From positions 1 to 64,000 of the forward strand of contig CACNCD010000002.1 in NCBI GenBank assembly GCA_902618855.1: 64,000 nt of DNA, written 5' to 3'. A program made the translations under genes and the position numbers. Below the pieces are notes generated by a model. That model made no database searches and was not told where the DNA came from. It saw only the letters and a program-made list of their open reading frames with translations. How positions within the stretch are numbered: the stretch's first letter is position 1; every line of letters starts with the position of its first letter. Positions 15,979-16,553 of this stretch are shown one piece after another. This DNA is from an uncultured Pelagibacteraceae bacterium. Its GTDB lineage: Bacteria; Pseudomonadota; Alphaproteobacteria; Pelagibacterales; Pelagibacteraceae.

Positions 15979-15988
15979 TTATTTGATA

Positions 15989-16016
15989 TTGAAAAAATAA
16001 AAATAATACCTATTTA
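15989..16016 (+). promoter_or_regulatory. Candidate heat-shock (sigma-32-like) promoter of hsp20
   Basis: TTGAAA (15989-15994), a 13-base spacer, then ACCTATTTA (16008-16016), which matches six of the eight informative bases of the CCCCATNTA consensus. The same TTGAAA-N13-ANCTATNT layout lies before groES. It predicts a transcript start near 16023 and a leader of roughly 50 bases that holds the thermometer-like hairpins. Confidence 0.55.
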
Positions 16017-16021
16017 AAATA

Positions 16022-16075
16022 AGCAAGTCGCCTAATGGGGGCTTGTAACTAACCTTGCTAACAAAGGAGGATAAT
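16022..16075 (+). promoter_or_regulatory. ROSE-like RNA thermometer in the hsp20 leader
   Basis: Two hairpins fit in the leader. The first pairs CAAGTCGCC (16024-16032) with GGGGGCTTG (16037-16045) around a TAAT loop. The second pairs CCUUGCU (16053-16059) with AGGAGG (16065-16070), the ribosome-binding site itself, leaving G16057 unpaired. This UUGCU-versus-AGGA pairing with one bulged G is the defining core of ROSE elements, which repress small heat-shock protein translation at low temperature in rhizobia and others. An alternative pairing AGCAAG (16022-16027) with CTTGCT (16054-16059) would compete and free the site. Structure was derived by eye. Confidence 0.6.
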
Positions 16076-16519
16076 ATGACAAGTAAGGATCTATCTATAT
16101 TTAACTCACTAAGACCTTTTTCAATTGGTTTTGACGATATGTTTGATCAATTTGAAAACATGTTGGGAAACGGAAGTTTGACAATGCAATCAAACTACCC
16201 ACCTTACAATATAAGAAAAACTGGAAAGGATAAATATTCGATTGAAGTTGCCCTTGCAGGATTTTCTAAAAAAGATGTCGAAGTAGAGTTTGAGGACAAT
16301 TTATTAACTGTTAGAACAAAACAAGTTGATAAATCTGAAAATAGAGAAGATGGTGAAATTATTCATAAGGGTATTTCACAAAGACAATTTGCTAGATCAT
16401 TCACTATCGCAGATGATGTAAAAGTGGGTGGAGCAGAATTAAAAGATGGTCTTTTAACGATAGCCTGTGAAAGAATTGTGCCAGAATATAAAAAGAAAAA
16501 ACTTATTGAAATTAAATAA
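16076..16519 (+). CDS. ibpA: Small heat-shock protein Hsp20 (IbpA-like), 147 aa
   Basis: An ATP-independent holdase with an alpha-crystallin domain. MTSKDLSIFNSLRPFSIGFDDMFDQFENM is the N-terminal arm of the IbpA class A type, the domain runs from YNIRKTGKDKYSIEVALAGF to LKDGLLTIACER, and it ends with a short EIK tail. The start at 16076 follows an excellent AAAGGAGG; an in-frame TTG at 16055 lies inside the predicted leader hairpin and is unlikely. Regulation is probably double: a heat-shock promoter and a ROSE-like thermometer. Confidence 0.96.
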   Translation: MTSKDLSIFNSLRPFSIGFDDMFDQFENMLGNGSLTMQSNYPPYNIRKTGKDKYSIEVALAGFSKKDVEVEFEDNLLTVRTKQVDKSENREDGEIIHKGISQRQFARSFTIADDVKVGGAELKDGLLTIACERIVPEYKKKKLIEIK

Positions 16520-16529
16520 GTAAACCTTG

Positions 16530-16553
16530 CTTGTGGGGATATTTCCCCACAAG
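16530..16553. terminator. Strong hairpin after hsp20, without a U-tract
   Basis: CTTGTGGGGA and TCCCCACAAG form a perfect 10-bp stem with a TATT loop, 10 bases after the hsp20 stop and 3 bases before the end of the convergent lipoprotein gene. Neither side has a T-run, so it may act as an mRNA 3'-end stabiliser or a shared weak terminator rather than a classical intrinsic one. Confidence 0.55.

Follow-up and report, generated by a model that had tools for sequence, protein, structure and literature searches.

The hsp20 genes of SAR11 bacteria are preceded by a conserved leader – probably a compact two-hairpin element of the ROSE type – which probably opens the mRNA and would act as a translational thermometer under sigma32 control, as judged by comparison of 176 leaders of one family. 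SAR11 bacteria are counted among the most abundant marine bacteria, and their very small genomes encode few regulators. If real, a conserved RNA-based switch in front of hsp20 would offer cheap sensing of warming or protein damage, and the leader provides a testable handle on the response of SAR11 to ocean heat.

Results

The hsp20 leader and its coordinates

The window analysed here – a 64,000-nucleotide stretch of contig CACNCD010000002.1 from an uncultured Pelagibacteraceae bacterium (assembly GCA_902618855.1) – contains an ibpA-like hsp20 gene that is the sole PF00011 match (63.9 bits) in a genome assembly 87.65% complete. A sequence-only reading of the window had proposed a ROSE-like RNA thermometer between 16022 and 16078, and the letters it quoted (AGCAAG, CCTTGCT, AGGAGG and ATG) are found where it placed them (Table 1). 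The pairing of CCUU(G)CU with AGGAGG that it drew is possible, with G16057 unpaired and a loop of AACAA, and the upstream hairpin is present, its stem being placed by RNAfold.

Table 1. Features of the hsp20 leader region in the window
Feature	Position	Strand	Basis
-35-like box ATTGAAA, sigma32-type promoter	15988-15994	+	Read from sequence; relatives
-10-like box CCTATTT (family form CCCATAT), spacer 14	16009-16015	+	Read from sequence; relatives
AGCAAG	16022-16027	+	Read from sequence
Hairpin 1: covarying stem, YGCC-loop-GGGR core	16023-16046	+	RNAfold, covariation in 73 leaders, RNAalifold, tree count
Anti-SD CCUUGCU, containing ROSE motif UYGCU (16055-16059), G16057 bulged	16053-16059	+	Sequence and leader comparison
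Shine-Dalgarno (SD) AGGAGG, partner of the anti-SD in hairpin 2	16065-16070	+	Sequence and leader comparison
ATG of hsp20	16076-16078	+	Sequence
hsp20 (ibpA-like), 147 aa	16076-16519	+	Translation; PF00011
AGUAAGG, codons 3-5, alternative seven-pair partner of CCUUGCU	16082-16088	+	RNAfold, frozen synonymous sites

Folding of 16022-16078 with RNAfold gives the upstream hairpin and a partial anti-SD/SD hairpin at -17.0 kcal/mol (z -2.66), an energy equalled by one of 200 shuffles; when longer coding sequence is added, the anti-SD pairs instead with codons 3-5 in two of the four stretches folded. Five Gs at 16037-16041 in hairpin 1 are unique to the window among 73 aligned leaders, and because of them RNAfold draws a G-G mismatch here and not the bulged G of the family. 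The arrangement CTTGCT-N3-9-AGGAG occurs once in the window, with 0.16 expected, and at least once in 15 of 100 shuffles; chance could therefore give the anti-SD/SD pair by letters alone, and the case rests on relatives. What lifts the pair above chance is its conservation, UYGCU...AGGA being present in all 185 usable leaders.

Conservation in SAR11

hsp20 was detected in 155 of 201 genomes of the genus and in 342 of 397 of the order, many of these genomes being incomplete. Leader loci comprised the best 80 named loci together with loci from other genera and divergent members, and of the 192 in all, seven were partial and were dropped; the other 185 gave usable leaders, which represent 162 different sequences over 60 nt. 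The window's family (f1) accounts for 176 of these (153 distinct over 60 nt, with some loci present twice, from two collections) and a second family (f2) for nine. UYGCU lies upstream of the ribosome-binding site in 176/176 f1 leaders, Y being C in L148, L150 and L151, and the ribosome-binding site was never seen without it – the pattern that the sequence-only reading had named as telling against a thermometer. A strict hairpin 1 pattern, UYGC[CU]-loop-[AG]GG[AG], is matched by 171 of the 176, and L046, L060, L087, L166 and L173 are one-base variants of it; of the 171, 157 have an outer stem of 4-7 unbroken pairs and 14 have one of 0-3.

The f2 leaders (L153-L162 without L157) are of a different kind, with UCGCUUAAGGAGGAUU in 9/9, a UCGCU that nearly abuts the SD, and an upstream hairpin that differs from that of f1. 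Five genomes that are 92-100% complete (G340, which is a single contig, G229, G302, G284 and G346) have no hsp20 match and no such leader, and have probably lost the gene.

Promoter and predicted 5′ end

Boxes resembling CTTGAAA-N14-CCCATAT, the sigma32 consensus as quoted in PMC3669281, are located upstream of the leader. Scored over the 14 letters of this consensus, 160 distinct upstream regions reach 10-14 (157 of them at least 11), and 60 shuffled sequences reach 8-11; the family form CTTGAAA is present in 131/160 and the 14-nucleotide spacer in 153/160. The -10 box stands 7 nt before hairpin 1 in 131/160 regions, and likewise in the window, which argues that hairpin 1 probably opens the mRNA. 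The hsp20 transcript thus probably starts with hairpin 1, with a 5′ end predicted near 16021-16024; a start downstream of 16053, which the sequence-only reading had regarded as fatal to its proposal, is not what the boxes indicate. By hand count the window's own two boxes carry 11/14 consensus letters, a score also reached by 2/60 shuffled sequences, and its promoter call therefore leans on relatives. An RpoH gene is present in the genome (356 bits; cut-off 323). Upstream regions of SAR11 dnaK show, by eye, similar sigma32-type boxes and no ROSE-like leader, and no such element was seen by eye in SAR11 rpoH or dnaK leaders wherever starts were located, the window's genome included; several rpoH starts and one dnaK start, which were not located, fall outside this check.

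Hairpin 1 covaries

The alignment used for covariation contains 73 leaders, 68 dereplicated and five with longer loops outside the first pattern; two other alignments, A2 (73 leaders cut at the SD) and A3, have the SD out of register and were excluded from models. In hairpin 1, 95.1% of cells are paired and 7/9 pairs have changed on both sides, with a covariation of 0.429 against a shuffled mean of 0.246 and none of 500 shuffles as high. Sliding the 3′ side by one base reduces pairing to 49-55%, and RNAalifold, unprompted, returns the identical nine pairs and the identical bulged G. On a tree built from hsp20 codons 3′ of the start region, parsimony counts 39 double compensatory changes over the nine pairs and 31 changes to unpaired; 38 of the double changes fall in the first seven pairs, for which a partner slid by -1 gives one and a partner slid by +1 gives 12. 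The bulged G and its adjacent C-G pair are invariant in the 73 leaders, and in genus g2 (L144-L147) and L187 the core is UYGCU/AGG[AG], the ROSE motif itself. Support is good both for hairpin 1 and for the resemblance of the leader to ROSE. The search for compensatory changes that the sequence-only reading had recommended thus succeeds for hairpin 1, but hairpin 2 yields no covariation within SAR11.

Hairpin 2 and the Shine-Dalgarno sequence

UYGCU and AGGAG hardly vary, so that covariation cannot test hairpin 2 pairing within SAR11. Among the 73 leaders 87.7% of its cells are paired with one double-change cell, a register slid by +1 pairs 94.6% of fewer cells, and the hairpin is absent from the RNAalifold prediction; we infer its pairing within SAR11 from conservation. 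The flanking pair at -2 is C-G in 53, U-G in 7, A-U in 7 and unpaired in 86 (n=153), and in other alphaproteobacteria the pair at -1 is G-U in 8, C-G in 7, A-U in 3, G-C in 1 and unpaired in 2 (n=21, in a register chosen to favour pairing, L231 giving none). Support for hairpin 2 appears to lie across the class, not within SAR11.

Modelling the leader by itself puts the cost of opening the SD at 6.0 kcal/mol (15 °C) and 3.5 kcal/mol (37 °C); with UYGCU replaced, the values fall to 1.0 and 0.1 kcal/mol, respectively. In 37-43% of cases a shuffled anti-SD segment closes the SD equally well or better; this comparison does not support an unusually tight closure, and stability alone therefore proves nothing. 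When coding sequence is included, the anti-SD pairs with the codons, and for this reason the SD itself opens easily, at a median of 1.9 kcal/mol (15 °C).

Covariance searches

At gathering score no Rfam family matches the window, and at E<=10 the segment 15850-16250 gives six weak matches, none of them ROSE. The Rfam covariance search of SAR11 leaders that the sequence-only reading had proposed bears it out in part: the best matches of ROSE_3 (RF02523) and ROSE (RF00435) in SAR11 are hsp20 leaders, which together with the constancy of UYGCU upholds the claim of a ROSE-like leader, but all lie below cut-off. With cmscan, 20 loci gave ROSE_3 twice, at L052 (26.4 bits) and L166 (24.4 bits), both on the coding strand of the hsp20 leader and the best SAR11 scores against a cut-off of 43. 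Over 40 SAR11 genomes the top three of the 49 ROSE_3 matches listed are hsp20 leaders (G417, E 0.0038; G156, E 0.026; G215, E 0.081), the other 46 lie elsewhere, and 37 leaders, the window's included, have no match at E<=10. RF00435 gave three matches over 33 SAR11 genomes, the best of which (G203, 19.7 bits against a cut-off of 45, E 0.77) is an hsp20 leader and the remaining two are not. The curated cut-off is reached in 0/33 (RF00435) and 0/40 (RF02523) SAR11 genomes, and the leader is thus ROSE-like by features given in the literature and not an Rfam member. Over 289 genomes of the class, RF00435 has eight matches at E<=1e-3, one above cut-off, and all eight precede a gene that by eye starts like Hsp20.

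We built a model (R1) from the 73 leaders, covering hairpins 1 and 2 with coding sequence only to the ATG. It scores E<=6.4e-9 at the hsp20 start in 29/29 f1 genomes with hsp20, many of which are training sequences or near relatives, and finds nothing better than E 0.008 in eight f1 genomes without an hsp20 match or than E 0.4 in three f2 genomes. Searched with strict filters against the 289 class genomes, its five best matches outside SAR11 (E<=7e-8) are all upstream of hsp20, and the 14 non-SAR11 matches at E<=1e-3 precede hsp20 in six cases, rpoH in three and dnaK in two, the other three (L220, L223 and L225) having no hsp20 there. Among 13 weaker matches, L231 and L232 precede hsp20, L236 precedes dnaK, and ten show no hsp20. 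The rpoH genes were identified by TIGR02392 in G781, G697 and G735 (below cut-off in G735), and the dnaK genes by TIGR02350 in G667 and by N-terminal sequence in G775 and G767.

Ten R1-found leaders were folded, and both bulged-G hairpins form in L213, L217, L218, L219 and L222, hairpin 1 only in L214, L224 and L236, hairpin 2 only in L226, and neither in L221. Two of the rpoH leaders (L218 in G781 and L222 in G697) are therefore among those with both hairpins and the third (L221 in G735) has neither; the dnaK leaders L224 (G775), L226 (G667) and L236 (G767) each have one in the minimum-energy fold.

Discussion

Relationship to known ROSE elements

Two-hairpin ROSE elements are already known, and the SAR11 leader is a compact further example. 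Of the ROSE features described in PMC3669281 and PMC11342760, the leader has its location in the 5′ UTR of a small heat-shock gene, a UYGCU motif that can pair imperfectly with the SD leaving one G bulged, and a 5′ hairpin. The sequence-only reading had considered the leader shorter than usual, but short ROSE-like thermometers of 61-62 nt with two hairpins are reported for Pseudomonas ibpA, in which regulation lies with hairpin II alone, this hairpin opening between 25 and 42 °C and hairpin I remaining closed (PMC3669281). The Pseudomonas and SAR11 leaders share a small heat-shock gene, a sigma32(-type) promoter and a short two-hairpin 5′ UTR in which a stable hairpin I is followed by a UYGCU/SD hairpin II. 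However, Pseudomonas belongs to the Gammaproteobacteria and its temperature response is proven, whereas the SAR11 element is known by sequence comparison; the SD/anti-SD core has G-C flanks in Pseudomonas and one flanking pair in most SAR11 leaders; and the passages of PMC3669281 consulted do not mention a pairing with codons 3-5 for Pseudomonas ibpA.

ROSE_3 shares with the SAR11 leader its two-hairpin layout, a bulged-G hairpin 1 and an ACUYGCU hairpin 2. RF00435 likewise has a helix I with a bulged-G YGCC/GGgg core and 4-nt loop, and a UUGCU hairpin on the SD, but SAR11 lacks its middle hairpin and the long lower stem of its SD hairpin, the outer run of which has 1-4 pairs in SAR11 and 5 in all eight RF00435 loci. 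The bulged-G core can be seen in the Rfam alignments themselves, in helix I of RF00435 and hairpin 1 of ROSE_3. Melting medians from Vienna are 68 °C for the 73 SAR11 hairpins, 66 °C for nine R1-found leaders elsewhere and 81.5 °C for the eight RF00435 loci, values that are unrealistic and of which only the order is used, as a hint. It is conjecture that the fewer flanking pairs of SAR11 hairpin 2 and its lower modelled opening temperature relative to RF00435 loci suit a colder range.

We found no description of a SAR11 hsp20/ibpA leader or RNA thermometer in the literature as represented by titles and the beginnings of abstracts. The main text of the survey PMC2704228 has no mention of hsp, heat shock, ibpA, thermometer or chaperone, and a thermometer is not mentioned in PMC5760092.

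A thermometer and its alternatives

In the mechanism we favour, hairpin 1 at the extreme 5′ end would shield that end and help hairpin 2 to fold, and hairpin 2, with one G of UYGCU bulged and the motif paired with the SD, would hold back translation at normal temperature. Warming would melt the weak hairpin 2, letting the ribosome bind and Hsp20 be made, a control added to that of sigma32 over transcription. A second closure of the start region could come, in Pelagibacter and closely related genera, from pairing of the anti-SD with codons 3-5. We infer melting and repression of the SAR11 leader from the work on Pseudomonas (PMC3669281).

The leader could instead be chiefly a binding site for Hsp20 itself, bound protein blocking translation until aggregates draw it off, such that the signal is protein damage. 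We regard this as possible but rather doubtful in that exclusive form; it could also act together with the thermometer, to which Hsp20 self-repression is a serious partner, presumed here by analogy. Escherichia coli IbpA, which resembles SAR11 Hsp20 (known by sequence) in being a small heat-shock protein with the same arginine spacing and a ROSE-type leader, represses its own translation via the 5′ UTR and needs Arg93 to do so, a residue described as common among the IbpAs of alpha- and gammaproteobacteria (PMC10474464). R-x-F-x-[RK], equivalent to Arg93 by its spacing, is present in 184/185 of the proteins encoded here, the remaining one being truncated. In cultures of Candidatus Pelagibacter ubique, sulfur-limited stationary phase brings a 3.74-fold increase in IbpA protein, for which no significant change in mRNA is listed, and in control stationary phase the protein goes up 7.63-fold and its mRNA 3.69-fold (PMC5069961), although protein stability, rather than translation, could explain such a rise. 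The hairpin 1 core is conserved beyond the needs of a mere clamp. However, binding of Hsp20 to the leader is putative for any SAR11 protein, and leaders of the same type on rpoH and dnaK elsewhere fit a thermometer at least as well.

The near-freezing of codons 2-5 raises the idea that the functional helix joins the anti-SD to codons 3-5, not to the SD, and thereby closes or switches the start region; we think this unlikely. Over 143 distinct genes, the synonymous entropies of these codons (ACA AGT AAG GAT, 16079-16090) lie between 0 and 0.19 bits, compared with an average of 0.90 bits for 114 conserved degenerate codons of hsp20, and lysine 4 is AAG in 136/137; yet seven other, scattered hsp20 codons are also below 0.35 bits, and codon choice at translation starts can freeze synonymous sites for other reasons. 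Both common forms of the helix, CCUUGCU/AGUAAGG and CUUGCUU/AAGUAAG, have seven pairs, and as noted above RNAfold favours the codon helix once more coding sequence is included, but the helix shows no covariation. In the model, the natural codons let the SD alone open more easily than recoded ones and the whole start region less easily, and recoding codons 2-5 cuts the opening cost of the whole region by 1.8-2.9 kcal/mol. Several distant genera that keep UYGCU and the SD lack the codon partner or have a shorter one (n=171), which rules out the codon helix as a universal feature and makes it an addition to the element, not its core.

A reading with no thermometer at all, in which hairpin 1 serves as a DNA operator or simply as a stabilising stem and UYGCU is an unrelated conserved site, is very improbable: hairpin 1 does lie at the predicted transcription start, and hairpin 2 does lack covariation in SAR11, but G-U pairs are common in hairpin 1 (one pair is U-G in 46/73 leaders), which argues for RNA pairing and not a DNA palindrome, and hairpin 1 and UYGCU are found together again in leaders of hsp20, and in some of rpoH, elsewhere. 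The two-state switch of the sequence-only reading, in which AGCAAG competes with the SD for CUUGCU, can be virtually dismissed, for although the window's strain has six perfect pairs and CUUGC could also find a partner in GUAAG, the common form of the arm, the pairing is not conserved in the 73 leaders (74.4% of cells paired against a shuffled mean of 74.8%, with 434/500 shuffles as high), its outermost pair forms in only 15/73, changes in the 5′ arm follow the 3′ arm of hairpin 1 instead, and the near-identical relative L032 has AACAAG.

Beyond SAR11 hsp20

A 2014 review states that ROSE always goes with small heat-shock genes (PMC4166951), although a report of 2024 describes ABC transporter genes with ROSE-like elements (PMC11342760). 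The SAR11 model points to the same type of leader on rpoH and dnaK elsewhere, and given the statement in PMC4166951, these leaders are a more surprising lead than the SAR11 leader. Of the large set of look-alike leaders in these AT-rich genomes, almost none is picked up by the curated ROSE models. A wider reading, which we put forward tentatively and do not expect to hold in full, is that a general alphaproteobacterial heat-shock leader exists on hsp20, rpoH and dnaK, contrary to PMC4166951, and that SAR11 may have kept one trimmed and weakened copy, with a lock reaching into the coding region and reporting aggregation, via Hsp20, as well as temperature.

Past the hsp20 stop codon in the window, at 16525-16553, CCTTGCTTG stands at the foot of a hairpin, CTTGTGGGGATATTTCCCCACAAG. 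These letters repeat the anti-SD of the leader, and similar ones are located 3′ of hsp20 in L180, L190 and L192.
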